Shown here piece after piece: positions 2,320-47,149 of a stretch of DNA of 47,149 nt. The translations under genes and the position numbers were made by a program. The stretch is from a virus, in IMG/VR virus record IMGVR_UViG_3300012931_000007, positions 1-47,149 of that record; one strand, written 5' to 3'. How positions within the stretch are numbered: the stretch's first letter is position 1; every line of letters begins with the position of its first letter. The notes under the pieces are model-generated. The model made no database searches. It was given only the letters and a program-made list of their open reading frames with translations, and was not told the DNA's origin.

Positions 2320-2625
2320 CTATAAGAACAATACTATCGCCAGCACTACGGGCGCTACGATTTCATTGAAGATTGCTGGGAAAGAGTTCATCCCAAACTC
2401 AACAGTATCAGCGCTCAAACCTGCCATCTTGCCTATCCATGCATATGAGTCCATCCGTTCTACGAAAAGACAGATTATTTTCATAATCCATATCGGAGAT
2501 ATAGTCTTACCAATCTTTTCTTCTTGCGGCAGGATTTTTCCTGCCTCGTCTGATAATATATCACGGCTTATTAGTTCTGATATCTTTTGCGGAGGAATCC
2601 TCCGTCGATCGATATCAGGAGTCAT
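2320..2625 (-). CDS. Unknown protein with hydrophobic C-terminus
   Basis: The 101-residue product starts at the ATG that overlaps the stop of the upstream nuclease gene (ATGA), so the two are coupled. The first 35 residues are charged. The remainder is mildly hydrophobic and ends in a strongly hydrophobic segment (APVVLAIVLFL) at the very C-terminus, suggesting a tail-anchored membrane protein. I recognise no family. Confidence 0.6.
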   Translation of the reverse strand: MTPDIDRRRIPPQKISELISRDILSDEAGKILPQEEKIGKTISPIWIMKIICLFVERMDSYAWIGKMAGLSADTVEFGMNSFPAIFNEIVAPVVLAIVLFL

Positions 2626-2996
2626 ACGATATGCTCTTTGATCCAATCAGTTATAACCCAATACGAGCCTTCTACTTTTCCATCCAAGTGCATCATGCTG
2701 TCAGCGAAAAGAGTGGTATAGAGATATCCGCCATTTTTGTTACCAAATACAACGAATAGATTCTCAAATCCATACTTTCCCTTAAAGGTATAATATAACT
2801 GCGGCTGGGATGATTCGAATGCAGTTCTAGGAGTCTTGGCTCTATCAATATCTTTTACCTCTATAAGGATTATCTTACCCTTATAAATAGAAAAAATATC
2901 TGGGAAGCCCGGTATCGATGAGTCTATATGGCTCGCATAGAATCCTGCTTTCCTTAATTCTTTTATCAATCTATATTCATACTTCTTTTCTTCCAT
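2622..2996 (-). CDS. PD-(D/E)XK nuclease, VRR-NUC/resolvase-like
   Basis: The 124-residue protein fits a small restriction-fold nuclease. An N-terminal helix has YRLIKELRKAGF, then comes PGFPDIFSIYKGKIILIEVKD, in which the aspartate of PD and the E-x-K of IEVKD form the metal site. A later strand and helix follow, with FESSQPQLYY acting as the usual Q-containing helix. VRR-NUC and archaeal-resolvase-like proteins of this size in phages process recombination or replication intermediates. The start follows AAAAGGAGAAC, directly below a strong hairpin. Confidence 0.75.
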   Translation of the reverse strand: MEEKKYEYRLIKELRKAGFYASHIDSSIPGFPDIFSIYKGKIILIEVKDIDRAKTPRTAFESSQPQLYYTFKGKYGFENLFVVFGNKNGGYLYTTLFADSMMHLDGKVEGSYWVITDWIKEHIV

Positions 2997-3011: not shown

Positions 3012-3033
3012 GGCGGGGGATGAATCCCCCGCC
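3012..3033 (-). promoter_or_regulatory. GC-rich hairpin just upstream of the nuclease gene
   Basis: GGCGGGGG (3012-3019) pairs with CCCCCGCC (3026-3033) around a 6-base loop. AT pairs can extend the stem inward. On the minus strand it lies between the 54-nt repeat and the AAGGAG of the nuclease gene. No U tract follows, so it is either a partial terminator, an RNA 3'-end stabiliser for the HTH gene transcript, or a translational element for the nuclease. Confidence 0.55.
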
Positions 3034-3048
3034 ATTAACTATTACACT

Positions 3049-3102
3049 ATCCACAGGCCGGAGCCTTCGGATTAAATCTCCAGGATCATTGCCATCTCCA
3101 AT
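3049..3102 (+). repeat. 54-nt inverted repeat, stray copy of helicase coding sequence
   Basis: The plus strand here is identical over 54 bases to the coding (minus) strand of the SNF2-type helicase at 5050-5103. The stray copy overlaps the last codons and stop of the small HTH gene and continues into the spacer before the nuclease gene. The copies lie in opposite orientation about 2 kb apart, and identity ends sharply on both sides. Confidence 0.95.
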
Positions 3103-3307
3103 TAACTCTAATCCGATCCTCAATCATTTTAATCACTTTCCCTCGATACATGTAAATCTTTCGAGGACCAAAACAATAAGGACTATCTCGAAGTTCACCT
3201 TTAATCCCAAGTTGCTTTATATGATAAGCAATATTCGGCCTAGGAACTCCAAGAATATCGACAATTTCCCGTATCTCATAAAGTCTAGTCCTGTTATATT
3301 CCTTCAT
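3086..3307 (-). CDS. Small helix-turn-helix protein
   Basis: This 73-residue protein starts behind AAGGAGTAAGT. Residues 10-35 (LYEIREIVDILGVPRPNIAYHI) read as a helix-turn-helix of the MerR/excisionase or winged type, and YMYRGKVIKMIEDRI continues as a wing and helix. It could bind DNA as a small regulator of the early block. Its last five residues (NWRWQ) and stop lie inside the 54-nt inverted repeat, so the present C-terminus was probably created or altered by that duplication. Confidence 0.65.
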   Translation of the reverse strand: MKEYNRTRLYEIREIVDILGVPRPNIAYHIKQLGIKGELRDSPYCFGPRKIYMYRGKVIKMIEDRIRVNWRWQ

Positions 3308-3316
3308 ACTTACTCC

Positions 3317-4159
3317 TTAAAAAATCTGAGGTTCTTTGCTAGCATCAGTCGTTGGTCTACCACCAAAGACATTGGCTACTGGGCTAGCATATGATGGTGC
3401 TTTAGGCTCCTCGGCTTTAGGTTCATCCTCAATAGGACCAGACTCGATATGAGCCTCAACCATAGAATCGAACAGTTCCTTAACGTCCGCAGCCATGGAC
3501 TTTGGAATCCAGCCAAGCCTATTCGTATCAGAGATAGAATAATAGGAATACGGAGGATTCTCAAAATACGCAGCCTTAAGACTCCAGACTGAAGCCCAAA
3601 TCGGGGCCTGAATGCTCTCGCCATCCTTTACTACCTTGATTGCCGTAGCCTGGGTCAGAAGAGTCCGGCTCGGTTTGATATTGGTGCTTGCCATTCCAAG
3701 AAGCATCGGGCCATCTTGAAGAGCATCAAGGGAAAGCATGACGAAGTTGCGGGTATCGACATACCTATGGCCGTTGACATCAAGGGTATATGATTTGACC
3801 CGGTGAGAACCCTCGGCGTTCTCTATCTTATTCTTGAACTCAGCCGGAGTGATGGTACCGAGGAAGTTGGAATCCATTCCCTCGCCATCGTAGACCGCAA
3901 AGTTTCGATAGAACTTGAGGATGATACCGCGGAACTCGGGGCCATAAATCTTCTTGGTGGCAGGGCAGAAGAACATGCCTGGTTCAAGTCCCTCGATCCT
4001 GGCGGAAGAGTTCTTCTTTACCTGGTCAGAAGAATCCTGCGCGATCTTGAGGAACGGCAGGGTAATACAATCCCTATCGACTCCCTCAAGTCCCGTAGTT
4101 CCACCGATAAAATCTATCGGCGCGACATCGAATGAACCAGTCTTTGCAAGATCGTCCAT
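3317..4159 (-). CDS. Possible ssDNA-binding or recombination protein
   Basis: The 280-residue protein has a mixed beta core (residues 20-210) and a low-complexity acidic tail with EDEPKAEEPKAPSYASP. An ordered core followed by a disordered acidic tail, encoded beside helicase and primase genes, is typical of phage single-stranded DNA-binding proteins such as T7 gp2.5. I see no decisive OB-fold signature. The segment GLEPGMFFCPATKKIYGPEF recalls a family of phage replication-associated proteins of uncertain function. The assignment is an inference from layout and neighbours. Confidence 0.45.
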   Translation of the reverse strand: MDDLAKTGSFDVAPIDFIGGTTGLEGVDRDCITLPFLKIAQDSSDQVKKNSSARIEGLEPGMFFCPATKKIYGPEFRGIILKFYRNFAVYDGEGMDSNFLGTITPAEFKNKIENAEGSHRVKSYTLDVNGHRYVDTRNFVMLSLDALQDGPMLLGMASTNIKPSRTLLTQATAIKVVKDGESIQAPIWASVWSLKAAYFENPPYSYYSISDTNRLGWIPKSMAADVKELFDSMVEAHIESGPIEDEPKAEEPKAPSYASPVANVFGGRPTTDASKEPQIF

Positions 4160-4211
4160 ACTATTACCATCCTTCTGTTTTCTTTCGTGGTCATACGATC
4201 ACGAGACGTGA

Positions 4212-4766
4212 TTAAAATCCTCCTTTCGGCTTCTTGACATCAGCCTTACGGAATATGCTGATCTTGACCGCATCCTCAGGCGGTTCGGTCCCACCAGCAT
4301 TCAAATGATCCTTCAAGACCTTTTTCAACGTCATGCTATGGATCGAAGAATCACGAGCATAGTTGTATGCTCTATCCTGTAAGAATTGTAGAAGATCTTC
4401 ATCAACTCCGCCCTTCTCGAATGCGAAGGTATCCTTGATAATATCGCCATATCCATTCTCCTCAAGCCATGCGGCAAGTTTCGACTTATCGCCCTGCTTG
4501 GTTTCGTAGATCGTATCGATGGATACATAGGTGCCATCTTTCATCGTAGCATCCTGCAAGCCAGCTTCAGCCAGGGCACACGGGATATCCACGCGTTCAA
4601 TGGTATTCTTCTTTTCCTTGTAATACTTAACTACTTCTTCTAGTGTTTCGATCGAAGGATAGCATCCAATAAATGCGATGAGATTGTCTACTCCAGTGGG
4701 ATTACTAGGTTCTTCAAGGTGATTAAGTTGGTCAACAAAGATGGCAAGCTGTTCATTGATATTCAT
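4212..4766 (-). CDS. Conserved phage replication-module protein, function unknown
   Basis: The 184-residue protein starts behind AAGGAAGAT. Its pattern is one I have seen in replication modules of unrelated phages: DGTYVSIDTIYETK, then AAWLEENGYGDIIKDTFAF, then SIHSMTLKKVLKDHLNAG, and finally PPEDAVKISIFRKADVKKP. No enzymatic motif is visible and no function is known to me. A sigma70-like promoter lies about 43 bases upstream, so it likely heads a transcript that includes the genes at 3317 and below. Confidence 0.6.
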   Translation of the reverse strand: MNINEQLAIFVDQLNHLEEPSNPTGVDNLIAFIGCYPSIETLEEVVKYYKEKKNTIERVDIPCALAEAGLQDATMKDGTYVSIDTIYETKQGDKSKLAAWLEENGYGDIIKDTFAFEKGGVDEDLLQFLQDRAYNYARDSSIHSMTLKKVLKDHLNAGGTEPPEDAVKISIFRKADVKKPKGGF

Positions 4767-4808
4767 ATCTTCCTTCCTTTCTTGCGGCGTTCCCGCCGTC
4801 CGGCGATT

Positions 4809-4837
4809 AACATACCGCGACTTTCGAGTCTTGTCAA
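4809..4837 (-). promoter_or_regulatory. Sigma70-like promoter for the 4766-to-2145 transcript
   Basis: Read on the minus strand there is a perfect -35 TTGACA (4837-4832), a 17-base spacer and a -10 TATGTT (4814-4809). Transcription would start near 4802 and give a short leader before the gene at 4766. The -35 lies 4 bases beyond the helicase stop, so this is an internal start of the early block. The spacer contains GACT-N4-AGTC, which might be an operator. Confidence 0.6.
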
Positions 4838-4840
4838 GTG

Positions 4841-6262
4841 CTAAACGAGATTGAAAATGTCTTCGATTGTCATGTCCTGGAACTTTGCGCGGATATCTGT
4901 CTTCGCTGCAAGGAGTTCCTCGATTCTTTCATCTACCGTGCCCTTTGTTATAAGTGTCTTATATACACATACCTCCTTTTGTCCTGGCCTATGGATTCTA
5001 TCTTCCATCTGCCAATTCTGCGATGGTGATAGCACTCGAGAATAGGAATATTGGAGATGGCAATGATCCTGGAGATTTAATCCGAAGGCTCCGGCCTGTG
5101 GATTAAGGACCATGAAGCGCACCTTTCCTTCCATAAAGAGGCGCTTGCCGATGTCGCGTTCTACTACATTATCTCCAAAAAATGCAACCGTTGGGGCCAA
5201 TTTCGATAACTCACGGACAAGCATTTTGATTTCGTGTGTAAACGCTGCCGTAATAATTGCCTGTTCATCGGTGTCTTGAAGTTCAGCCAGCAGCATTTGG
5301 AGTTTGGGTGGACTATCATCAATGATCTTTGACTCTCCCTTAACATTGATAGCGCCACCAGTGATCTGTCTGAACTTAGTAAAGAGGGCGACTTTGTTGG
5401 GTACTGTAAGTACACTTTCTTCAATAAGAGCCATGAGTTGTTCTTTAAGTTCCTTGTATATCCTTCTCTGCGAATCAGACAGTTCGACATGAATCTTGAC
5501 ATGGATTTTTTCCGGTAGGTCGAGACAGTCCTTTTTGAGTGCTCGTGAGCAGTACGGACTGATTCTATCCATGAGTTCCTGCATCCGCTGGAAACCAACA
5601 ACCTTCTTGAATGTCCGTCCACCTGGTCCATAAGCATCCTCCAACAATGCGTATCGTGCTCTGAATAGGAAGTATGATTTCACGTTCCAGAATCCTGGAT
5701 GCAGAAACTCGAACTGCATATAAAGGTCAAGCGGAGTATTCGTTATTTCTGTTCCAGACAAAATCATTCTTCCTTTTGCTAGCTTGCCAGCAAGGAGAAT
5801 ATTCTTTGAACGCTTGGCATTGTAAGTTTTTATATAACTGGATTCATCGATCACCATTAGGACCAATCTTTTCTGTAGAAATGTCCTTACCCTATTGCGC
5901 ATGGCCTCCGGTAAGGACTGAAATGCTTCAACGTTTACAACATAGATCGATTTCTCTTCCGACTCGATTATCCTTCCAAATTCCTCTTCTGATTTCTTAG
6001 TTGTTCTGCCATCCCATGTGGCTATTGCATAAGGAACGTTCATATGCTTTGGTAGTTCATCATCTATCCATACCGAGCAAATAGCCTTTGGCGCAATGAT
6101 AAGAAGCGAATTATAGAACGTGGGTATTGATAAGAATGTATCGATCGTCGTCTTCGTCTTGCCGGTGCCCATTTCCATGAACAAAGCATGGAATCCATGG
6201 CGCTGGAGATTGTCTATGGCTTGAGAGATAGCTCGTTTCTGATGCTCATATGGTGTTAGCAT
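4841..6262 (-). CDS. SNF2/SF2-family DNA helicase
   Basis: The 473-residue protein has the full set of SF2 motifs. They are Walker A MGTGKTKT (31-38), motif II DESS (139-142), motif III SGTEITNTP (169-177), motif V NPQAGAFGLNLQ (387-398) and motif VI QMEDRIHRPGQ (418-428). The RIHRPGQ form marks the SNF2-like branch common in phages, where these ATPases act in replication, repair or transcription remodelling. Length is normal for the phage form, without extra domains. It overlaps the upstream gene by 7 bases and has AGGAAAACC as its ribosome binding site. Codons 387-404 are the source of the 54-nt inverted repeat found at 3049. Confidence 0.9.
   Translation of the reverse strand: MLTPYEHQKRAISQAIDNLQRHGFHALFMEMGTGKTKTTIDTFLSIPTFYNSLLIIAPKAICSVWIDDELPKHMNVPYAIATWDGRTTKKSEEEFGRIIESEEKSIYVVNVEAFQSLPEAMRNRVRTFLQKRLVLMVIDESSYIKTYNAKRSKNILLAGKLAKGRMILSGTEITNTPLDLYMQFEFLHPGFWNVKSYFLFRARYALLEDAYGPGGRTFKKVVGFQRMQELMDRISPYCSRALKKDCLDLPEKIHVKIHVELSDSQRRIYKELKEQLMALIEESVLTVPNKVALFTKFRQITGGAINVKGESKIIDDSPPKLQMLLAELQDTDEQAIITAAFTHEIKMLVRELSKLAPTVAFFGDNVVERDIGKRLFMEGKVRFMVLNPQAGAFGLNLQDHCHLQYSYSRVLSPSQNWQMEDRIHRPGQKEVCVYKTLITKGTVDERIEELLAAKTDIRAKFQDMTIEDIFNLV
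5050..5103 (-). repeat. 54-nt inverted repeat, copy within the helicase gene
   Basis: This is the original copy of the repeat at 3049-3102. It encodes the helicase motif V region (NPQAGAFGLNLQDHCHLQ). Since this is the conserved coding copy, the other is the duplicate. Both lie in minus-strand transcripts in opposite polarity, so the RNAs would be perfectly complementary here. Confidence 0.95.
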
Positions 6263-6468
6263 TCAGGTTTTCCTATAACTTGATTGCACATAGGAAGTGG
6301 AGTCCACATTACTGCGTTGAACTCACCCCGCGTCAGTATATACTGACGAGGCGGGACAAGTTCACCAAGTCCTGATACGGCCCTTCGCTTTCGCAATGAT
6401 CCAAGATTGAGGATTTTGCCTGTCTCTTCCTCGTATATCTTGGCCCATTCTTTAATCGTCTTTTTCAT
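6256..6468 (-). CDS. Small helix-turn-helix-like protein
   Basis: The 70-residue protein starts behind GGGAGGCGTATA, inside the last codons of the primase gene, and its stop overlaps the helicase start. All three are therefore translationally linked. Residues 5-30 (IKEWAKIYEEETGKILNLGSLRKRRA) look like a helix pair with a basic recognition helix. It may bind DNA and assist the primase or helicase. I do not recognise a named family. Confidence 0.6.
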   Translation of the reverse strand: MKKTIKEWAKIYEEETGKILNLGSLRKRRAVSGLGELVPPRQYILTRGEFNAVMWTPLPMCNQVIGKPEC

Positions 6469-8791
6469 TATACGCCTCCCTTGCCGCTGCTCGATCTGAT
6501 CTCTGATCTATTTGTATCCCTACGTATTGCCTTCGCCCGTTCCGCCCAGCCTCGGATGGGAATCCACGTTCCCGCATCGCCCGTCCAAAGGCTGTCTGCG
6601 TCATCTTGGATGCATATCGTTCACCGTCTTCATCTGCCCACGAAGTAAATGCCTGATATAGATCGCTTGCAGAAATTAGAATCTGATCAGGCCGACGCAT
6701 AAGAGGATCATTGCTAGCTGTTACGCATCGACTCCTAACGAATCTACCAATAATATCTTCATCTTCCCTATATTCCTGCGTCTCTTCAAGTAAGACCTTG
6801 GGAATATCAAGACCCTTTCTTCCACCGCCACTTTTTACCCATTGTCGGCATCCTTCCACCATCCAGGCCAAGATTCCTTCTCGTTCTTCCCATAATTTAC
6901 TTGATAGTTCGTAGTCTATTTTAGGTCCTTGTACTAGGTAATCAAATGGTACAAGAATTATACGGCGCCATATCCCATAGTCGCCACCAGATACTCGGGG
7001 CCGATGGTTTGTTGATATTACTATTTTCCATGAAGGATTAAATTGAAAAAACTCTCCATGTAGGAATCTTGCTACGATAACATCTCCTCCCGTCATCCCC
7101 TTTATCTTTGATTCAGCGAGTTTCTCATTCGCGTTTGTCTCAGTCGCTAGTACGAGTCTTGCCCCTCGCAGAGATGCAACATCATTAGGGATTGCTCCAG
7201 CTTGTTTCATTATGAATGTATCAGGCGGAGCTGTTCTTGAATAATCTCCCATAATTCTTGATATAAGTTCGACTAATGTAGACTTTCCATTAGCGCCATT
7301 ACCATAGAATATTGCGAATGTCTGCGCTGATACACTTCCTGTCAAAGAATATCCAAACCATCGCTGCATAAAATTAGATATATCTGGTCTACTTAAAGTA
7401 ATATCATCAAGGAACTTCATGAACTTAGGACATTCCGTATTAGGATTATAATTAGTGTTAGTCATCATAGAACACATGAGTCCTGGATTATGTTCTTTTA
7501 ATTTTCCTGTAGCAAGATCAACAACTCCATTTCTACAATTAAGGATCATTGGTTCAGCGTCAAAGTCTGTTTCATGAGCCGCAACATGAGGCTCTCGCGC
7601 GGCCAGGTCTATAAGGGCTGATATCCTTGGCCTTGATTCACAGTCCATTGCAAACTTAATAGCGTCTTTGTCTCCGCTAAGTGCCATACTTCTAATTGTT
7701 TCCTTTATCATGGGAGTTATGGCTGATTGCTCACGGTCAGACCATTTCCCGTTTCCCCATACACACCACTTTTTTTTCTCACTATTATATTTAACTATAT
7801 CTCCATATCTGTCTACGAATCTCTCAGCATTTCCCATGTCCGTAGCATTTCGTTCTTCTTGCGGCTCATCGGTTGGAGCTTCGACTCCAAGTTCAATCAA
7901 AGACAATTCTCTGGCGACTTCCAGCAAAGCCTTCGCCCTTTCTAGCCCGCCGTCTTCTGATATACAGTCTGCAATATCCCATCCCTTAAACTTATCTTTA
8001 GGTGGATCAACCATCCGCACCTTACATCCTTTGCTGGCAAGGCGGGAAGCAATATCGATCATAGCCGATACACCAACATCATCGGCGTCGGGCCAAAGAA
8101 TAATATCGGCGCCATCCAATCCATCGAGCATTACTTTTGTGGCTGATCCTGCGCCACCATGCCAGGTTGTGACGCTATACATGGAAAGACTACGTGCCGC
8201 AATAGTCTGGCATTTCTCTCCTTCAACAATCAAAACCGTCTTCGTATTATCAAATGGTATAAGCGGCCGCGCGCCGCCTAAAGAAGGCGGGAGCCCTTTG
8301 ATCCATTGTCCCCCGGTATAATACAAGGGGAATATTTCCTTCTTTCCGCCATAGTCGCGTCGCACGATGACAAACATCGGCTCTCCGTCGATGTTCTTTG
8401 AGTTGTAGACTGTTACGAAAGATGGCGTAGGATCGCTGAACGCTGGCAAGAAAGAAAATGGTTTCCAATCCGGCCGGATTGCTTCAGGGGAGGACGCCCT
8501 AGGCTCGGGTGCGCGTTCTGTATGCCCGATAATATCTCGGGCAATATCAGCGGCACTTTTTCCTTGAATCGTTGCAAGAATATCAAAAATATCTCCATTA
8601 TCTCCGGTGGCAAAGTCATAATATATTCCATCATCGCGTACAGAGAATGATCCTATATTTTTATCGGGCCGGCTTGGGTTTAGGCAATAATAATTGCGCC
8701 CATTCCAGTAGGCTCCTGGTGACTTGAAATGCTGCTCAATGAACTGTCGAGAGATATGGCCGTGCGCCTCAGAAAACAATGTATTAGCCAT
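6452..8791 (-). CDS. Primase-helicase, P4-alpha/D5 type
   Basis: This 779-residue replication protein joins a primase and a superfamily 3 helicase. The N-terminal 90 residues resemble the DNA-binding part of phage primases. Residues 186-290 hold a Toprim domain (VLIVEGEK at 186-193 and LWPDADD at 232-238). From about 320 comes the D5_N region, then the SF3 ATPase with Walker A YGNGANGKST (496-505), Walker B-like LVLATETN and the arginine finger region SGGDYGIWRRI. Phages with this protein prime and unwind at their own origin and borrow the host polymerase. That fits the absence of a DNA polymerase gene here. Its start follows AAGGACTATAT. Confidence 0.9.
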   Translation of the reverse strand: MANTLFSEAHGHISRQFIEQHFKSPGAYWNGRNYYCLNPSRPDKNIGSFSVRDDGIYYDFATGDNGDIFDILATIQGKSAADIARDIIGHTERAPEPRASSPEAIRPDWKPFSFLPAFSDPTPSFVTVYNSKNIDGEPMFVIVRRDYGGKKEIFPLYYTGGQWIKGLPPSLGGARPLIPFDNTKTVLIVEGEKCQTIAARSLSMYSVTTWHGGAGSATKVMLDGLDGADIILWPDADDVGVSAMIDIASRLASKGCKVRMVDPPKDKFKGWDIADCISEDGGLERAKALLEVARELSLIELGVEAPTDEPQEERNATDMGNAERFVDRYGDIVKYNSEKKKWCVWGNGKWSDREQSAITPMIKETIRSMALSGDKDAIKFAMDCESRPRISALIDLAAREPHVAAHETDFDAEPMILNCRNGVVDLATGKLKEHNPGLMCSMMTNTNYNPNTECPKFMKFLDDITLSRPDISNFMQRWFGYSLTGSVSAQTFAIFYGNGANGKSTLVELISRIMGDYSRTAPPDTFIMKQAGAIPNDVASLRGARLVLATETNANEKLAESKIKGMTGGDVIVARFLHGEFFQFNPSWKIVISTNHRPRVSGGDYGIWRRIILVPFDYLVQGPKIDYELSSKLWEEREGILAWMVEGCRQWVKSGGGRKGLDIPKVLLEETQEYREDEDIIGRFVRSRCVTASNDPLMRRPDQILISASDLYQAFTSWADEDGERYASKMTQTAFGRAMRERGFPSEAGRNGRRQYVGIQIDQRSDRAAAREAYNEKDD

Positions 8792-8846: not shown

Positions 8847-9779
8847 CTAGTCCTTTAATTTCCCTTCAAGCGCCTTTCTGCGTAGATTTTCCACGATATC
8901 GTAAGAAATTAATATGCGCCGTGTTGATCCTACTCTCTTATAGGGCAACCTTCCACTCGCCATCCATCTTTTTATTTTGCGTTGGCTTACTCCAATTCTG
9001 ATACCCGCTGTTAGCATTGAGTATCCTTTAAGTTCATTTGCTAGGTTGTTAAGCGATTCTTTGTCGTAATATTTATATCGTCCAAATATTTGCGGCGTTA
9101 TCATCCCTATCATTGAATAGTTTCTGAATGTTTCTCTCGGAATACTAAGATACTTTGCCGCTTCATCCGTTGGATATAATCCCATGTTTAAAGCTTTTGA
9201 TCGTTGGTCTTCGGGGTTATCGCTTTTTTTTGCTACTGCCGGCTCGGTTTTCTTTCGCTCGCCTCTGAACTTTTCATGCTGTCTCTTTCGCTCATCGGAC
9301 TTTTCTTTCCTAATATCATATATTTTTTTAAATATAATATGCATATTGTTTTCGTCTACATATGTGCTACTTTTATATGTATATTTATGTATCGTTGGTA
9401 ATTGATTTAGGGCCTCGGAAATAGTTTCTCGGCTTACATGGTATTCTTTTTCTATCCTATAGATGCTTATATAATTGAATGGTATACTTGATTTTTCTAC
9501 AGCGCTAATAACGTCATCATAATTAAACCATTGACTAAATATTCCGTGATTGAAACAAGGGAATAGACCAGCCTCTATTAATGCCTCGCATATAAGCATT
9601 TTGTCATATCCTGACTCGCGCGAAAACGTTCCTACTGTTATTTTATCCTCCGCCTCATTTTTGTCATGGCTCGTGGAGTCTTTGGTAGAAAAAAGTGGAC
9701 CAGTTATGCACATATGCCGTGGACAATCCCTGTTATCCGATGGTGCTATTATCTGATCTATCTTATAGGTATCATTCAT
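8847..9779 (-). CDS. DNA-binding protein with two C-terminal HTH units
   Basis: The 310-residue protein carries helix-turn-helix units in series. One lies near residues 108-130 (RIEKEYHVSRETISEALNQ). A second lies near 203-225 (PTDEAAKYLSIPRETFRNYS). A third, excisionase-like unit lies near 257-290 (GIRIGVSQRKIKRWMASGRL followed by PYKRVGSTRRI). A highly charged linker (about 155-185) separates the N- and C-terminal parts. It could be an origin-binding or regulatory protein. Its position immediately upstream of the primase supports a replication role. The start has GGGAG eight bases upstream. Confidence 0.65.
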   Translation of the reverse strand: MNDTYKIDQIIAPSDNRDCPRHMCITGPLFSTKDSTSHDKNEAEDKITVGTFSRESGYDKMLICEALIEAGLFPCFNHGIFSQWFNYDDVISAVEKSSIPFNYISIYRIEKEYHVSRETISEALNQLPTIHKYTYKSSTYVDENNMHIIFKKIYDIRKEKSDERKRQHEKFRGERKKTEPAVAKKSDNPEDQRSKALNMGLYPTDEAAKYLSIPRETFRNYSMIGMITPQIFGRYKYYDKESLNNLANELKGYSMLTAGIRIGVSQRKIKRWMASGRLPYKRVGSTRRILISYDIVENLRRKALEGKLKD

Positions 9780-12183: not shown

Positions 12184-12501
12184 TCATTCCGATTCATATT
12201 CTCTATAACATGCCTGTATTTCTCTATTTTTATCATACTTATTGCATGCTCCACTATTTTTATTATAGCATGTTTCTTTATTTTTACATTTAGTATGCAA
12301 CACTATGCTATCTTCTGAATACACGTTTATATTTCCAGTATCCCACTTTATTCTATAAGGAAGTCCTGACATTTTTAATTCTATTATCGTTCCTATTGTC
12401 GGATTGCCTTTCTTGTCGCAATCTTGTTCTCCGTATACCCAATTTTCTTTATTCCTTTCTACTCTATCGCCAAGTTTATATCCAAAATAATCCATATGCA
12501 T
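12184..12501 (-). CDS. MIB/HERC2-like domain protein with cysteine tail, copy B
   Basis: The 105-residue protein has two parts. Residues 8-68 match the Mib/HERC2 fold pattern: GDRVERNKENWVYGEQD, then IGTIIEL, then YRIKWDTGNINVYSEDS. In eukaryotic E3 ligases this SH3-like domain binds short peptides. Residues 72-101 form a cysteine module (CKNKETCY, GAC, ACYREYE). It is a paralogue of the gene directly upstream, so one arose from the other by tandem duplication. The start follows GGGAG with 8 bases spacing. In the phage it may recognise a protein or peptide tag. Confidence 0.65.
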   Translation of the reverse strand: MHMDYFGYKLGDRVERNKENWVYGEQDCDKKGNPTIGTIIELKMSGLPYRIKWDTGNINVYSEDSIVLHTKCKNKETCYNKNSGACNKYDKNREIQACYREYESE

Positions 12502-12505
12502 AATA

Positions 12506-12811
12506 CTATCTCCCTATCGTTTCATATTCCTTATAACATAGCGGAGGATCAAGCATAGCCTCCGAACAAAGGTCAATAGTCGCATTATAACATGACTTCA
12601 TATATTTACATTCGCATACACCTAATAAACTTTTAGAGTCATACATATATTTTCTTCCTGTCTTCCACCGTACTGTATAAGGCAACACGCAATTCTTATC
12701 TATGGAAATTATTGTTCCCAATACTTTGGCCCCCGTGAAATTACAATCCTGGTCTCCCCAGCACCACCCATGCTCGTTTCTTCTCACTCTATCGTTCACT
12801 TTAAATACCAT
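12506..12811 (-). CDS. MIB/HERC2-like domain protein with cysteine tail, copy A
   Basis: This 101-residue protein repeats the architecture of the next gene. It has an Mib/HERC2-like domain (NDRVRRNEHGWCWGDQDC, LGTIIS, YTVRWKTGRKYMYDS) and then a cysteine module (CECKYMKSCYN, DLC, LCYKEYE). The WGDQD core is very close to the WGDQDGG signature of the eukaryotic domain. The gene is AT-rich and lies at the end of the amidoligase island, which makes recognition of a modified peptide or protein an attractive but untested idea. Confidence 0.65.
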   Translation of the reverse strand: MVFKVNDRVRRNEHGWCWGDQDCNFTGAKVLGTIISIDKNCVLPYTVRWKTGRKYMYDSKSLLGVCECKYMKSCYNATIDLCSEAMLDPPLCYKEYETIGR

Positions 12812-13338: not shown

Positions 13339-13668
13339 TCATAGTTTAACCTCCCTGACCTTATCATCGTGGCTAGTTCCCCTGCTTTTCTCATGTGATG
13401 CTCCGTCAAATAATCCTCTAGCCTCTAGGCTGATATATAACTTTGTAATAAACTTCCATATATAAGATGCCTTATTTGTTTTCGGCATCTCTTTTTGTAT
13501 TGTTTCTAAGTACGCGGCACTAGGTTCTCCTAATATTCTAATATATTGTACCTTACCTCCTTCTATAAAGCATGATACAAGTTTACCATTGGTACGGCCT
13601 ACTGCAAGCATTACTGATGATGATAGATTATCATCGAAGTATACTCCGGTAAACCGCTTAATACTCAT
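13339..13668 (-). CDS. Hypothetical protein in the amidoligase island
   Basis: The start chosen is ATG 13668 (MSIKRFTGVYFDDN) behind AAAGGAAACC. ATG 13689 is an alternative. The 109-residue protein is half beta (LSSSVMLAVGRTNGKLVSCF) and half helical (YLETIQKEMPKTNKASYIWK), with a polar, probably disordered C-terminus. The start lies within the last codons of the glutamine amidotransferase gene, so the two are coupled. No family is recognised. It could be a partner of that enzyme. Confidence 0.55.
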   Translation of the reverse strand: MSIKRFTGVYFDDNLSSSVMLAVGRTNGKLVSCFIEGGKVQYIRILGEPSAAYLETIQKEMPKTNKASYIWKFITKLYISLEARGLFDGASHEKSRGTSHDDKVREVKL

Positions 13669-15031
13669 TATATCGGTTTCCTTTCGCATAGTCTAGAAGA
13701 TTTCCTTGTCTAATTCCATTCTTATTGATAGGAATAACCTTGTTTTTATTATTTCCGTTTCGCTTTGTTCGCTTATCGTTTATTGATTTATCCTTCTCCT
13801 CGCTTTTGATGCTGTCTGTTGTCTCCTGCTCCATTGATTCAATGCATTGGATCTCATTCATCATATCAAACATCATTTTTAATACTATATCATATGATCG
13901 AACCTTCCATCTATCAATCCAATAATGAGCTGAAGAATTATATATCGGTGCTATATATAAGGCTCCTGATTTTCTAAAATCCGAAGTATATCCGAACAAT
14001 ACGGAATTGTATAAAAAATCATTAGAGAATGTTTCATATGTCTTTAAGCATCCAAGGAATGTTAAAGTATCGTTTTCATGATTATATACATATATTTTAT
14101 TATATGCTCTGTTGACATATATTCCTATACTAGGATCGACTATATAAAAATCATGAAATGTTTTGTAGTCCATTCGTGTTGCGATTGTTAGTCTCATGGG
14201 TATATACCATCTAAGAAGGTCGAATCTTATTATTGCATCAAATCCTCCATCTTGCCCATTAAAGTTTTTTCTAGCAATATTTACGATAGATGCTACCTTT
14301 TTTGAATATTCATCTTTATATTTCTTTATTGAATTTGTATAATATTCTGGCTCGTAATTGTCGTATGATACTTGTGAATTTATATTTGTGCTTACTGGAA
14401 CTCTTTTTATATATGTCTTATTAGAATACATAACGCCATCACAAGTTTCAAACTCTCCCGATAGTGTCGCTATAGTCCCATCTCCATTCAGGCATAATAT
14501 CTTATTATACCCGAAGGTATGCTCTAATAGTTTCTTTATCTTTTTATTTTGTTCCCATCCACTTATGACAGATATTGGATAAAGAATATTCGATATCATT
14601 TCCATTGTATCACTTGGTCCAGTTTTTTTATCCTTGTCTTGATATGATTTTGTGCATGATCCTGCTAGTGTTCCAATGTTTAAAACTCCATTATGAACTA
14701 CTACTGAATCATATACACCATTCAATCTTTCCATTGTCTCATAATCTTCAACGAGAGGGAATGGATGGGTGTGTATAGGATTATTTTTTGATCCATGCGT
14801 TCCAATGCGGAAGTGAAATATCATTGCAGTTTTTTGAGTGTCAATAAGTGTTTCTATCTCTTCTAGCTTTGTATTAAAATCAGTAATGGTCATGAGACCT
14901 TTATGAAGATACACCTTGCCTTCATGGGCATATGCTATTCCTGCTCCATCTGGATTAGCTTCGAAGCATGCAGCAAATGTATCACGCGAAGGAATTGTAA
15001 TATCAATTGGTTTTGCGCAGATGATGCACAT
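13658..15031 (-). CDS. Class II glutamine amidotransferase-like protein
   Basis: The N-terminal half of this 457-residue protein is an Ntn-type class II amidotransferase. The second residue is cysteine (MCIICAKP), which becomes the nucleophile after methionine removal. Further motifs are NPDGAGIAYA (27-36), MIFHFRIGTHGSKNNP, the loop IHTHPF, and VVVHNGVL, the HNG motif that holds glutamine. Such domains release ammonia from glutamine and pass it to a synthetase partner. Residues 220-400 form an unknown second domain, and the tail is lysine- and asparagine-rich. Location directly after the amidoligase suggests the pair works together, as in the phage and bacterial systems described for GS-like amidoligases. 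The ribosome binding site is GGGAGG. Confidence 0.8.
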   Translation of the reverse strand: MCIICAKPIDITIPSRDTFAACFEANPDGAGIAYAHEGKVYLHKGLMTITDFNTKLEEIETLIDTQKTAMIFHFRIGTHGSKNNPIHTHPFPLVEDYETMERLNGVYDSVVVHNGVLNIGTLAGSCTKSYQDKDKKTGPSDTMEMISNILYPISVISGWEQNKKIKKLLEHTFGYNKILCLNGDGTIATLSGEFETCDGVMYSNKTYIKRVPVSTNINSQVSYDNYEPEYYTNSIKKYKDEYSKKVASIVNIARKNFNGQDGGFDAIIRFDLLRWYIPMRLTIATRMDYKTFHDFYIVDPSIGIYVNRAYNKIYVYNHENDTLTFLGCLKTYETFSNDFLYNSVLFGYTSDFRKSGALYIAPIYNSSAHYWIDRWKVRSYDIVLKMMFDMMNEIQCIESMEQETTDSIKSEEKDKSINDKRTKRNGNNKNKVIPINKNGIRQGNLLDYAKGNRYNEY

Positions 15032-15146
15032 ATTTATTCGTCCTCCCTTATTGCGGCGTACCCTTCACGTACTTTTATATCCGTATAGGAATTGAATAAA
15101 TCTTTAATTTCTTTTGTTATTATGTCTTTCTTAAATAGATCAATAT

Positions 15147-15161
15147 CTATATATATATATT
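15147..15161 (-). repeat. (TA)n microsatellite at the amidoligase stop codon
   Basis: On the minus strand the amidoligase ends AATATATATATATAG: alternating T and A run straight into the TAG. Loss of one TA unit would replace the stop and open a frame that continues about 38 codons (DIDLFKKDIITKEIKDLF and on) to a TAA at 15036-15034, two bases before the amidotransferase start. The 115 bases between the two genes hold this extension frame and the GGGAGG of the next gene, and nothing else visible. Confidence 0.7.
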
Positions 15162-17300
15162 CTGGTCTGAATTATCCACTGATATTGATCCATCATTATT
15201 GAGTTTTATTTTGCTATTATCTATCGGAATATTAGTAAGCCTTTTAAATTCATCACTGGATGATCCATATTCGACGAATGCCCACATTTCTCCTTCTTTT
15301 ATAAATTTCAATCCATATTCTTTTGTTATCATTTTTACCATCATCGAGCTGGCCATTAAAGTAATATATTTTATTATTTTGATATTGTTTTTATCTATTG
15401 ACTGGGGGATTTCGAGAGTCACCATTCTGGAGTTTTCGTCGGCTAATTGCATTATTTTTATTTTCTTTTTTCCGTCCCATCCTTCTCCAATCATCCTGGA
15501 GTTATAATCAAGTAGTTCCGTATAGCGCGCATAGTTAATTATATCAAGCCATTTCAGTTTCAAGATATCTGCAATATGTGTCTCTTTATTTATTTTTACC
15601 ATGTTATCTACGAGCTGCAAGGTGGCCCAAAATGTTATAGGATTTAATGTTCCTCGGAATATTCTAAATTCTGCCGTATTACTTCTATTCATGTTAAGCG
15701 TTCGATATCTATCAACCTCAGCGTGATCAATATACCGGAACCATTCTTCCATCATTTTTTCTATATTCCCAGTTGCAATAATCTTTGCCTGAAAAGATAT
15801 ATTAAACATTCTCTTCGCCCAGTGCATATCACTGGTTCCTTTTCGGCGTGAGAATATAAATAATTCAGGCCAAAATAATTCAGTAAGTACGCCAAGCTGG
15901 CAAAGTTTTATCTTTCTATTTTCAGATATTTCACCATAAAACGTTCTATCTATATGGACGTGTAGTCCGCATGTCTCAATATCATGTGATAGCATTCCTG
16001 ATTCCTTTGGTATCTTTAATAGGTTCTCATATCGAGTTCTATTTTCCATCATATATTTAAGCGTAGATGGATGTGTTACTTGTTCAAACCCATGCGAAAG
16101 CGATCCATCACGCTTTATAAATACATGTTTTGCTCCAACATTTTTATATATACGTTTTGCAATAGCATTAAGGTCTAAAGAACTATAGCAGTCTACCTCT
16201 AGTTCAAATCCCATAAATAAATCATCTTTTCTTTCGGACTCCCCGTGAAAGAAAAGCGATCCAGGAGAGTATGAATGGTTTGAGTTTACAAAACTCCCGC
16301 CATTACCTCTTTCGTTTAATAATGTATAATCAAATTCTGATAACACTCCGCAAAAGCAGCTATTACATATTATATCTCCTTGTTTTATGTTCTGTTTTTT
16401 AAGATGTTTGGTAAACGCGAATGGAATCATTTCCGATGGTGTATGGCCCTGAATAACTCTTTCGACCTGAGAAGGTGGTAATGTAACTCTTGTCAATGTA
16501 ACTCTTGTCGTAGAATCACTGCCATAACCTGGTCGGTATGATGGTGCAAATATCTCTGAAGGTGAAAGAGGTATGCCGTCTATATCAACACTATCCCTTT
16601 TTTGTGTTCCTTCTATTCTTTCGATAACAACATTAAGTTTTTGCATAAACGAATCAGAAACGATATGGTATTGTGTCTTATGCTCCCTGTGATTGCATTT
16701 TACTGTAACAAACTCATCCTTATGAATGGGGCATATGGAAAGCGTTGACGTATGTCCTTCTATTCTATTTATAATTACATCGTCATAATTAACTTTAGAA
16801 TAGTTATTTCCGCATAAACAACACTGACCAACCTTGTATCTTTCTGTTACGAGTGGAGACCATAAATCATTCTTAATATATATAAATGATTTGTCAAACA
16901 TTATTATTTTTCTCATTTCTGCTTCATGGCAAAAGTCGCCTGAAATTTCGCATTTATGGTACTCTTTAAGACATTCGGGACACAAAATCTTTCCTTCTGG
17001 GTTTTTTATTGCTTCTGAATATTCCTTCAGTATCAAGGTTCCACAGTGTTCACATCTCACTATATCTTTGCTTAAACATTTCTTACATACGTGTAACCAC
17101 TGTAGCACTCCTCCGGGCATATATATCTGTCTTGCATGGGTATAATTATTGTAATGACGTTTTTTGCATATTCCGCATTCTTCGGTATTCCTTTCTAGGC
17201 ATGATGGACAATAATATTTCCCAGATTCTATTTTGCTATATTCTGGTTCACCTTCGGTATGAATATGTCCGCATCCTGCACACCCTCTCTCTTTCTTCAT
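15147..17300 (-). CDS. Zinc-ribbon amidoligase (GS-like COOH-NH2 ligase family)
   Basis: Residues 355-570 of this 717-residue protein contain the amidoligase motifs in order: MGFELEVD (363-370), KRDGSLSHGFEQVTHP (396-411), CGLHVHID (444-451) and AEFRIFRGTLN (543-553). These acidic and basic residues bind Mg-ATP in the glutamine-synthetase fold and would join a carboxylate to an amine or ammonia. The N-terminal 320 residues carry many CxxC pairs (CAGC, CPSC, CGIC, CKKC, CEHC, CPEC, CLCG), several zinc ribbons or treble clefs that likely select the substrate. It heads the AT-rich island and is followed by a class II amidotransferase. It has a structured leader of about 200 bases and SD GAGGGGAG. 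Its TAG lies in a TA microsatellite. Confidence 0.85.
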   Translation of the reverse strand: MKKERGCAGCGHIHTEGEPEYSKIESGKYYCPSCLERNTEECGICKKRHYNNYTHARQIYMPGGVLQWLHVCKKCLSKDIVRCEHCGTLILKEYSEAIKNPEGKILCPECLKEYHKCEISGDFCHEAEMRKIIMFDKSFIYIKNDLWSPLVTERYKVGQCCLCGNNYSKVNYDDVIINRIEGHTSTLSICPIHKDEFVTVKCNHREHKTQYHIVSDSFMQKLNVVIERIEGTQKRDSVDIDGIPLSPSEIFAPSYRPGYGSDSTTRVTLTRVTLPPSQVERVIQGHTPSEMIPFAFTKHLKKQNIKQGDIICNSCFCGVLSEFDYTLLNERGNGGSFVNSNHSYSPGSLFFHGESERKDDLFMGFELEVDCYSSLDLNAIAKRIYKNVGAKHVFIKRDGSLSHGFEQVTHPSTLKYMMENRTRYENLLKIPKESGMLSHDIETCGLHVHIDRTFYGEISENRKIKLCQLGVLTELFWPELFIFSRRKGTSDMHWAKRMFNISFQAKIIATGNIEKMMEEWFRYIDHAEVDRYRTLNMNRSNTAEFRIFRGTLNPITFWATLQLVDNMVKINKETHIADILKLKWLDIINYARYTELLDYNSRMIGEGWDGKKKIKIMQLADENSRMVTLEIPQSIDKNNIKIIKYITLMASSMMVKMITKEYGLKFIKEGEMWAFVEYGSSSDEFKRLTNIPIDNSKIKLNNDGSISVDNSDQNIYI

Positions 17301-20645: not shown

Positions 20646-20750
20646 AGGGCTTTGCCCTCTTTCCTTGACGGCCTCTATGGCCGCAAGGAATGCGGGGGAT
20701 ATTTAGCAGGGCTTGGAAACCTGCTAGCCGCATTATGGGTCTATCGACCC
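20646..20750 (-). ncRNA. Densely structured leader of the gene at 20645
   Basis: Four hairpins fill this stretch. They are GGGTC-GATA-GACCC (20750-20737), a two-part stem made of AATGCGG/CCGCATT (20689-20695 with 20728-20734) with inner AGCAGG/CCTGCT (20705-20710 with 20720-20725), a 10-bp stem with one bulge (20663-20673 with 20679-20688), and AGGGC/GCCCT (20646-20658) touching the start codon. The order and tight packing resemble a riboswitch or a regulated mRNA leader. The class is not recognised. Confidence 0.5.
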
Positions 20751-20762
20751 GTCCTCTGCGAT

Positions 20763-20993: not shown

Positions 20994-21023
20994 GACCGGG
21001 CTGTGGACCGGATCGCCGCATTA

Positions 21024-21091
21024 GGCGCTAGGCCCTTCGGCCGTAGCGCCCCATCTGCGACCTACGGGTGGGGGGATACCGTACCCGTAGG
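21024..21091. promoter_or_regulatory. Two strong hairpins in the non-coding spacer
   Basis: GGCGCTA-GGCC (21024-21034) pairs with GGCC-G-TAGCGCC (21039-21050), an 11-bp stem with one bulge. Then CCTACGGGT (21061-21069) pairs with ACCCGTAGG (21083-21091). On the minus strand they follow the gene at 21103 and may terminate, attenuate or process that transcript before the 22-bp repeats. Confidence 0.6.
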
Positions 21092-21818: not shown

Positions 21819-22067
21819 TGACAAAAAATGTCGGAGTGTCGGGCTTGGCGTGACAAAAATGTCGAATGTGTCAAAGTCGAGCAGTGGCGAGGATACGCCG
21901 ACAGGTTGACACGGGGCGCGGGATTGTCTGGGTTTGAGTGTGAGTGTGACATTATGGCATAAAGTGTCATGCTGGAGTTTGACAAAATTACTGATTGTGT
22001 CAATCTTGAGTTTGACAAAATATACGAATATGTCATGCCCAGTTTGACAAAATAGTTGAAAGTGTCA
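21819..22067. repeat. Array of seven TGACA-N13-TGTCA dyads
   Basis: Seven 23-base units start at 21819, 21851, 21907, 21947, 21980, 22013 and 22045. All have TGACA, exactly 13 bases, then TGTCA (TGTCG in the first, TGTCT in the third). The last three share TTTGACAAAAT and are spaced 33 and 32 bases, about three helical turns. The fixed half-site spacing points to a dimeric DNA-binding protein, either a replication initiator (iterons) or a repressor. The protein at 8847 or another phage HTH protein could be the binder. Confidence 0.8.
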
Positions 22068-22343
22068 TGGTATTGAGGGTTTGAGGGTTTATTTGGGTAT
22101 TTATATACAGACTCGGGTTTCACGATTGTGTAGATTGTGTGTAGACTATGTGACGAATACTAAACGCTACACTTGACAAAATCCTTTACACTTGTAAAAT
22201 TGGGTGTTTTTGGTTAGGCGACACTGGTGTAGTGTAATTCTTGGTGGTAGCGATAGCTATTGCACTATTTGGGGATTGGAGGTTTTGGAGTATTGCGGGT
22301 TAGGTGAAGACATGAACTTTTGGTTCATATAAGCGGGCGTGAT

Positions 22344-22483
22344 TTCTAGATAGTTTGAGAGTTTGTACGTTTATCTGGTATTATTATTTTATATAACATA
22401 TATAATCCATATATATGTATATACATATATACCTATAAAATAAATACCCGGAAAAACTGTCGAATCTCACAAACTATCTAGAA
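22344..22483. other. AT-rich tract flanked by a 14-bp inverted repeat
   Basis: TTCTAGATAGTTTG (22344-22357) is repeated inverted as CAAACTATCTAGAA (22470-22483). The 112 bases between are very AT-rich, with TATATAACATATATAATCC and TATATATGTATATACATATA near 22393-22433. That is the look of a DNA unwinding element. A related GATAGTT/AACTATC pair follows near 22513-22540. Dyads ATGAAC/GTTCAT (22312-22328) and GTGTATGA/TCATACAC (22546-22565) bracket the block. Confidence 0.65.
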
Positions 22484-44994: not shown

Positions 44995-47108
44995 TGCGAT
45001 ATGGGATATCTCCTTCTGCATATTGGCCTATAGATTACTTCCCTCGCTTTACTGGTGGGACGTATACACTTAATGCAGGAGGAGGTTCCTATACTGAAAC
45101 TGTATCAGACGTAAACCTTCTTGCCTCGTTGGTATTATCTGCCAACAGTGGACACTTTATAGAGACTGGTTATTCAGTTGATCTTGATTATACTACACCT
45201 ACGCACTATGTACTTACGGCTGATCCGGGAATATATATCTACACTGGATATGATGTAGAACTGACATATGATCAATGGATATTACTTAAGTATACCGATA
45301 TTCCCGTATACAAGACTGAGAACTCTGTTCCTCTGTATTGGGGCGCTCTGACTACGGCGCCTTCGAGTGGGTACATTGTTGATGACTATTACTTCGACGC
45401 TAATACTGCTGGCTCTGGTGGCGGAATAATACGATACTATAACGGATCGTCATGGGTTGAAATGACTTCTTCCCACCCGTTATATGTTGAAGCCAATTGG
45501 AATGCGCTTTCTGATATGTGCGAATGGGCGACTGATCAAGCGACGACTATAGCAGCGGCAACGGCCATTGTACAGAAACTTGTCACGTCGGACGCGTTTA
45601 TTGAGAACCTCTACGCGCAGAACATCACGGTTCCCTCAGGCGGAAGCCAAAGGTGGTACGATGGACAAGGCGTTAACCGGACGAGCATCAGGCTTGAAGA
45701 TGGCCGCTTGGATTTCCTTGATAGCCCTGATACTACCCCTGCTACTGACGAGGTGCTCCGCGCCCGATTCGGACGGCTTGGGGTAAATGGCCCTTCTATC
45801 CTTGATGGATACATATATACTAATATAGAAAATGGTTGGTTTGATTCTGGAGCTATACCTGGGGCTTCTGATACTACATATCGTATAATAAGTGTTAAAA
45901 GAGCTAATGGCTCCATCAGGGTTGCATATAAGAAAAGTGATAACAAAATATATGAACGTACTTTTAGTACGTCTACTTTGGCGTTTGGTACTGAGACAAC
46001 TTTGGTTGATGAAGCTGTTGGAAATTTTAAGTATGGTGAAACAAAAGAAGGGGTGCTTCACTTTCTTTATGGAGATACAACTGGTACTCCTGTTTATCAT
46101 GAAATGATATATAATGACAGCACAAGTTCGTGGGGATCTTCTGCCACTATAGGAATATCAGCCTCTACATACGGATCGCCCGGGTACTTGGCCTCTTTTG
46201 ATGGGAACTTCTATCTATATTTAAATAATTCAAGCACTCTTGATGTTTATAAAACAACCTATTCTGGTGGATCATGGGGAACCCCTGTGCTTGATCTATC
46301 GAAAGACGATGATGGTTGTTTTGTTTTCGAACGTAATAATAATGAGCGATGGATGTTTCATTATGGAGATGGAGGAACGTATACCTATATAAAGAAAAGA
46401 GAATATAATTTCAGCACTAATACCTGGGGTTCTGCTGTAACCGTCAATTCGTATATGTCGTCTACTTCTATCTATGAAACAATTGATGATACTCTTCTTG
46501 TATATTGCCCTTCTGGCGGCGGAAGTGCTTATGGATACACTTATGATGATGTTAATGATGTATTTGTTTCCATAGAAACATTATCCGGCACAAAGGATTA
46601 TCCATCAATAGTCCAGTCGTCCGATGGTACTATTTATATGTTCTATATAAATAGTAGCGACCTTCCTAGTTTGAGATATAAAATAAGTTATGCCCCAATA
46701 ATGCCCCGTTTAATCGAACAGTCCTATATCCCTGCCCCTGTCGGATTCGGCACACCGAGTGATGTATCATTCTCCTGGGTGCGCATTGGGAATAAATGCA
46801 AGGTCTTAGGCCGCTTCACCCCTGGCACCACCACTGCCACTGAGGCGCGCCTACCCCTTCCTTGGGGGCTGACGATCGATTCGACCCTCGTACCGTCGAT
46901 CCGCTCATGCGGTCGCGCGCTCAGGAGCACCAGCGGGGTCTCAGGCCGGTCGGTGCTCATGTTGGGCGGCAATTCATATGTGACCTTCTCGCTTATTAAC
47001 GCAACAGGATTCGGGGCGCTCACTTCACAAAACGGCAGCGATGTTGCCGTCTCGGGCGAGGTGTTTTCTGTAGAGTTCGAGGTTCCTGTTACAGGCTGGA
47101 ATACATAA
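44994..47108 (+). CDS. Tail fibre, receptor-binding protein
   Basis: The 704-residue last tail gene has short N-terminal beta repeats (GYSVDLDYTTPTHYVLTADP, GYDVELTYD), a helical neck (AATAIVQKLVTSDAFIENLY), a beta-propeller-like part (about 265-555) with repeating Y-x-x-S-x-x-W-G units, and a C-terminal domain (565-704). That last domain, opening near FGTPSDVSFSWVRIGNKCKV and ending FEVPVTGWNT, is typical of phage fibre tips. The propeller part is AT-rich while the last 400 bases are GC-rich, suggesting a tip gained by recombination. The stop lies in the terminal repeat. Confidence 0.75.
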   Translation: MRYGISPSAYWPIDYFPRFTGGTYTLNAGGGSYTETVSDVNLLASLVLSANSGHFIETGYSVDLDYTTPTHYVLTADPGIYIYTGYDVELTYDQWILLKYTDIPVYKTENSVPLYWGALTTAPSSGYIVDDYYFDANTAGSGGGIIRYYNGSSWVEMTSSHPLYVEANWNALSDMCEWATDQATTIAAATAIVQKLVTSDAFIENLYAQNITVPSGGSQRWYDGQGVNRTSIRLEDGRLDFLDSPDTTPATDEVLRARFGRLGVNGPSILDGYIYTNIENGWFDSGAIPGASDTTYRIISVKRANGSIRVAYKKSDNKIYERTFSTSTLAFGTETTLVDEAVGNFKYGETKEGVLHFLYGDTTGTPVYHEMIYNDSTSSWGSSATIGISASTYGSPGYLASFDGNFYLYLNNSSTLDVYKTTYSGGSWGTPVLDLSKDDDGCFVFERNNNERWMFHYGDGGTYTYIKKREYNFSTNTWGSAVTVNSYMSSTSIYETIDDTLLVYCPSGGGSAYGYTYDDVNDVFVSIETLSGTKDYPSIVQSSDGTIYMFYINSSDLPSLRYKISYAPIMPRLIEQSYIPAPVGFGTPSDVSFSWVRIGNKCKVLGRFTPGTTTATEARLPLPWGLTIDSTLVPSIRSCGRALRSTSGVSGRSVLMLGGNSYVTFSLINATGFGALTSQNGSDVAVSGEVFSVEFEVPVTGWNT

Positions 47109-47149
47109 ATTAATAGGGGGAGTATGTGGAGACCGTTGATCAGTGGGCA
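47027..47149. repeat. Terminal direct repeat, right copy
   Basis: This is identical to 1-123. It holds the end of the tail fibre gene and the first eight codons of the XhlA-like gene (GTG at 47126). It should be removed when the genome is closed. Confidence 0.95.

Follow-up and report, generated by a model that had tools for sequence, protein, structure and literature searches.

What is an exact piece of a helicase gene doing, in reverse orientation, at the end of a small HTH gene? The question arises from a phage genome whose genes include a terminase large subunit, a head-tail adaptor, a major head protein and tail proteins. We analysed it as a window that covers the IMG/VR virus record in full (47,149 nt), and followed the two arms of the inverted pair, their surroundings (Table 1) and the corresponding region of a sister phage.

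The exact inverted pair and its surroundings

The original prediction of an exact 54-nt inverted copy with wholly different flanks was confirmed in both respects. Positions 3049-3102 (+) are the reverse complement of 5050-5103 over 54 of 54 nucleotides, without a mismatch when read against 5103-5050 (-), and the identity breaks off at once on either side into unrelated flanks. The placement of the copy at the end of the small HTH gene also proved correct, as this gene stops inside the copy. Its product ends with ...RIRVN followed by WRWQ*, of which the last four codons (WRWQ) and the stop codon come from the copy. It is only a guess that the gene formerly ended with the tandem stops TAA TAG, the end obtained if the copy and a few preceding bases are removed back to a shared GGAT.

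Table 1. Features at the two arms of the inverted pair and along the minus-strand gene run (window coordinates).
Feature	Position	Strand	Remarks
VRR/Hjc-like nuclease gene	2622-2996	-	downstream of the copy
GC-rich hairpin	3012-3033		GGCGGGGGATTCATCCCCCGCC on the minus strand; 9-bp stem; z -3.8
ATTAACT, first unit	3034-3040	+	7-nt direct repeat flanking the copy
Inverted copy (left arm)	3049-3102	+	minus-strand reading is antisense to the helicase mRNA
Small HTH gene	3086-3307	-	73 aa; HTH_5 E 0.0016, under the Pfam cut-off
ATTAACT, second unit	3101-3107	+	overlaps the last two bases of the copy
Pam3 gp34-like gene	3317-4159	-	upstream border of the interval in both phages
DUF7307 / Pam3 gp33-like gene	4212-4766	-	between the two arms
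SNF2-type helicase gene	4841-6262	-	473 aa, intact; lineage-specific extra codon inside the copied segment
Donor arm	5050-5103	-	helicase codons ~387-404 (motif V)
Small ORF	6256-6468	-	further gene of the minus-strand run
D5-type primase gene	6452-8791	-	further gene of the minus-strand run
HTH protein gene	8847-9779	-	further gene of the minus-strand run

Both arms lie in a run of minus-strand genes in the order HTH protein, primase, small ORF, helicase, gp33-like, gp34-like, small HTH and nuclease. A distance of 15 nt separates the left copy from the strong GC-rich hairpin, which precedes the RBS of the nuclease gene. No Rfam RNA was detected at the copy site. The 7-mer that flanks the copy on both sides would be shared by chance at a rate of ~2.5%, and the similarity of the flanks gave p ~0.02 upon shuffling. 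We also considered whether the left copy could be what is left of an older, longer helicase pseudogene and rejected this; beyond the 54 nt, one flank gives a stop and the other no helicase-like residues.

Apart from one self-palindrome (22410-22431), the pair is the only exact inverted pair of at least 20 nt in the window, and a sensitive self-comparison of the window recovered it with an E-value of 4e-21 and no other dispersed inverted pair of note. As background, 171 other phage loci (2.38 Mb) were examined for exact inverted pairs with arms more than 200 nt apart; none reached 30 nt, and one measured 29 nt. A chance origin of such a 54-nt pair in 47 kb is out of the question.

When mismatches were allowed, only one other locus, L071, had any inverted pairs. 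It carries 46-nt inverted repeats (2107-2152 and 3560-3605), 96% alike, near a repressor-like gene. We set L071 aside as a parallel case: judged by eye, one of its pairs resembles operator repeats beside the repressor-like gene, the second resembles a short hairpin-type repeat, and neither is a gene fragment.

The helicase gene as donor

The right arm lies in a gene that matches Pfam SNF2-rel_dom (3.5e-22) and PHROG 62, DNA helicase (3.4e-103). The copied part corresponds to helicase residues ~387-404 (NPQAGAFGLNLQDHCHLQ), i.e., motif V. The original prediction was right about the conserved motif but overstated its rank in calling it the most conserved of the helicase; motif VI (EDRIHRPGQ), further on in the protein, is better conserved in the alignment.

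The helicase is 54% identical to that of the sister phage, and the copied region aligns unbroken save for one extra residue. This residue, at helicase codon ~399, follows motif V (GLNLQDHCHL) and falls inside 5050-5103. The window reads QDHCHL where the sister reads QN-CHL, and the residue is absent from all 32 of the 32 aligned phage homologues. Because both arms of the pair carry the extra codon, the left arm was copied from this lineage's own helicase. The helicase is taken as the donor because the conserved motif is intact there, while the context on the HTH side is not that of a helicase. At the level of sequence, both the direction of copying, from the helicase to the left arm, and its origin within the same genome are clear. 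Since zero changes in 54 nt limit the divergence only to about 5% (rule of three), the event can be called recent, though it need not be very recent.

The gp34-nuclease interval and proposed template switching

IMG/VR was queried with the helicase, primase, gp34 and nuclease, which yielded one sister only as a near relative, IMGVR_UViG_3300028549_000475 (G001). A search of IMG/VR for the exact 54-mer found none, no closer relatives were found in species genomes, and the INPHARED phages contained neither a DNA match nor a relative of the small HTH gene. As the original prediction had suggested, we looked for the stray copy in related phages: it is absent from the sister, and also from the other helicase loci compared. 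A relative of the small HTH gene was likewise not found in the sister genome, which holds another HTH-like ORF between gp33 and gp34.

The gp34-nuclease interval of the sister (G001 13935-14228) holds a piece of the sister's own tail gene in inverted form: 14052-14152 match 22001-22101 at 87% identity over 101 nt (E 1e-28), and more pieces extend to 14210. The scrap is in frame with the nuclease and gives it an N-terminal extension. Searching all called ORFs against their own genome with tblastn revealed one non-tandem gene fragment out of place per phage, both in the gp34-nuclease interval. By chance, the two fragments would share an interval with a probability of about 0.6% if one particular arm is considered and 2.6% if every pairing of arms is counted, figures that are post hoc and based on two genomes. 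GC hairpins stand near the scrap in both phages, following it in the window and preceding it in the sister. In two gp34 loci that are more distant (L178 and L179), there are neither inverted copies nor a relative of the nuclease. The sister interval is itself altered, and a clean empty site was not found.

As an observation in its own right, the N-terminal extension of the sister nuclease derived from the inverted tail-gene fragment (G001 14010-14222, in L174) reads GAITADKIAAGAIVVGKLGAGAVERV...

We regard the left copy as a mutational scar, namely a short templated inverted insertion, with a probability of roughly 0.7. It is a reverse-complement copy of a sequence from the same genome, and the source has been kept. 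Among the explanations offered in the original prediction for the lack of divergence, a recent event is the best supported: the sister is without the copy and has a different inverted scrap in the same interval, and the window's own helicase was the donor. We read both scraps, in the window and in the sister, as templated micro-insertions produced by replication template switching at a plastic spot. In the sister, the scrap is of greater length and age and is in frame with the nuclease, and it may have another origin.

A possible course of events can be outlined. At some recent point in the history of the lineage, while DNA was being replicated or a break repaired, a 3' end within the gp34-nuclease interval would have switched template to the opposite strand of the helicase gene 2 kb away; the GC hairpin may have stalled it there. 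After copying 54 nt it would have returned, leaving in the interval an inverted fragment that came to form the last codons of the small HTH gene together with the spacer behind that gene. The interval seems to gather foreign material, the sister having its inverted tail-gene piece and the window its extra HTH gene. Template switching as the mechanism, the hairpin as the trigger and the lack of a function are what we infer from this arrangement.

Comparable events have been described elsewhere. In yeast RPA and rad27 mutants, most foldback inverted templated insertions measure 5-34 bp, and distant complex insertions have inverted overlaps with a median of 50 bp (PMC11724301). Template-switch mutation is documented in E. 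coli (quasipalindrome mutations; PMC7202029), and template-switch mutations are also reported from great apes (PMC7954356). With template switching of the FoSTeS/MMBIR type, the window shares a short exact reverse-complement copy with sharp borders, an intact source and possibly a hairpin or microhomology nearby. It differs in that 54 nt were copied over 2 kb in a phage, whereas most described local cases are shorter and closer, and in that the ancestral site from which the switch points would be read is not at hand.

It is quite improbable that the gp34-nuclease interval is a programmed or recurrent capture site for inverted fragments of the phage's own genes through hairpin-linked template switching. 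If it were, the VRR/Hjc-like nuclease would perhaps take part, and new gene ends would be made, such as the tail of the HTH protein and the N-terminal extension of the sister nuclease.

The pair is a true feature of the recorded sequence and most likely an ordinary mutational scar. If real, it represents a clear and fresh case of a phage genome that gained a short inverted templated insertion which has not yet decayed, and the sister phage hints that one interval collects such scraps. It would also illustrate that a single step can provide a phage gene with a new end and create a long complementary RNA pair. Its wider meaning is small as long as neither a function for the duplex nor a capture mechanism is demonstrated.

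Alternative readings of the inverted copy

Could the copy act as an antisense element instead? Transcribed at the end of the HTH gene, it would pair with the helicase region of an operon transcript, either its own or another, and the resulting 54-bp duplex could be cut by RNase III, which would mean less helicase late in the operon or separation of the mRNA segments. No clear terminator separates the two arms, which belong to one minus-strand gene run, and they would share one transcript only if this run is an operon. The duplex energy is -110.8 kcal/mol, and the minimum-energy fold of the 2.16-kb minus-strand transcript keeps 54 of 54 pairs and is ~60 kcal/mol more stable than when the copy is shuffled. 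These energies do not indicate selection or function, because any exact inverted copy folds in this way. Moreover, the target lies within the coding region, away from ribosome-binding sites, and translating ribosomes would open the duplex. The arrangement has in common with cis-encoded antisense RNA the perfect complementarity to an mRNA; unlike such an RNA, the copy lies 2 kb downstream in the same gene run rather than opposite its target, with no promoter or conservation shown. The sister phage and the other helicase loci compared are without the copy. None of the relatives examined shares the inverted pair in which selection for complementarity, another option of the original prediction, would show, and the pairing is not conserved across them. 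There is no evidence that the copy does anything, and an antisense role is without comparative support. We consider this reading unlikely.

It is also rather doubtful that the copy is an artefact, in which a chimeric amplification product or a low-coverage path would have placed a reversed helicase piece in the contig. Amplification chimeras are known to be mostly inverted, joining segments less than 10 kb apart via 2-21 nt of complementarity (PMC1855051), and the inverted joining over a short range recalls the two arms of the window. MDA inversion chimeras, however, show one junction and an intervening deletion (PMC1855051), whereas the window has two junctions with continuous flanks and an undeleted source; two junctions would be needed here in one short stretch, with the normal path missing. 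A comparable scrap also occupies this interval in the sister, whose sequence is a record of its own, and its 13% divergence is something no artefact gives.

An assembly fault induced by the repeat, another option raised in the original prediction, is unlikely for a further reason. The ends of the contig overlap exactly over 123 nt, which suggests a final k of 123, and a repeat shorter than k, such as that of 54 nt, does not tangle an assembly. The helicase frame and the gene order across the right copy also agree with the sister. A common JGI MEGAHIT setting goes up to a k of 123. The end overlap itself (1-123 and 47027-47149) is probably a k-mer overlap that the assembler left on a circular contig, not a natural terminal repeat.

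There is very little to be said for the copy having arrived together with the small HTH gene in a recombined module from a close relative and not by a separate event here. The HTH gene does lie within this plastic interval, and no relative of it was found in the sister genome, but the copy matches the window's own helicase exactly, including the extra codon, and a very near source would be needed.

Finally, an invertible segment, in which recombination between the arms would flip 3103-5049 as a switch and which the original prediction had suggested for the 2-kb segment, is barely credible: 54-nt inverted arms can in principle recombine, but the inversion would shorten the helicase to 421 aa, give it an unrelated tail, take away motif VI and turn gp33, gp34 and the HTH gene against their operon, the two orientations do not both give working genes, and no recombinase was recognised among the genes scanned, a part of the gene set.

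Several other features of the window lie apart from the inverted pair. Two Twister-P5 ribozymes score above the Rfam gathering score at 20996-21059 and 20707-20760 (-), ~240 nt apart, in a region with several palindromes. A quasi-palindrome at 22344-22483 (146 aligned columns, 77% self-complementary), which includes the exact 22-nt palindrome 22410-22431, lies just before the structural genes and is perhaps an origin or a regulatory site. On the minus strand, at 13658-17300, a weak glutamine-amidotransferase-like ORF (457 aa) adjoins an amidoligase-like ORF (717 aa; PHROG 16683, weak Amidoligase_2), and the two may form a modification pair. Also on the minus strand, 12184-12811 encodes tandem paralogous small proteins that are 37% identical and have weak Pfam MIB_HERC2 matches.
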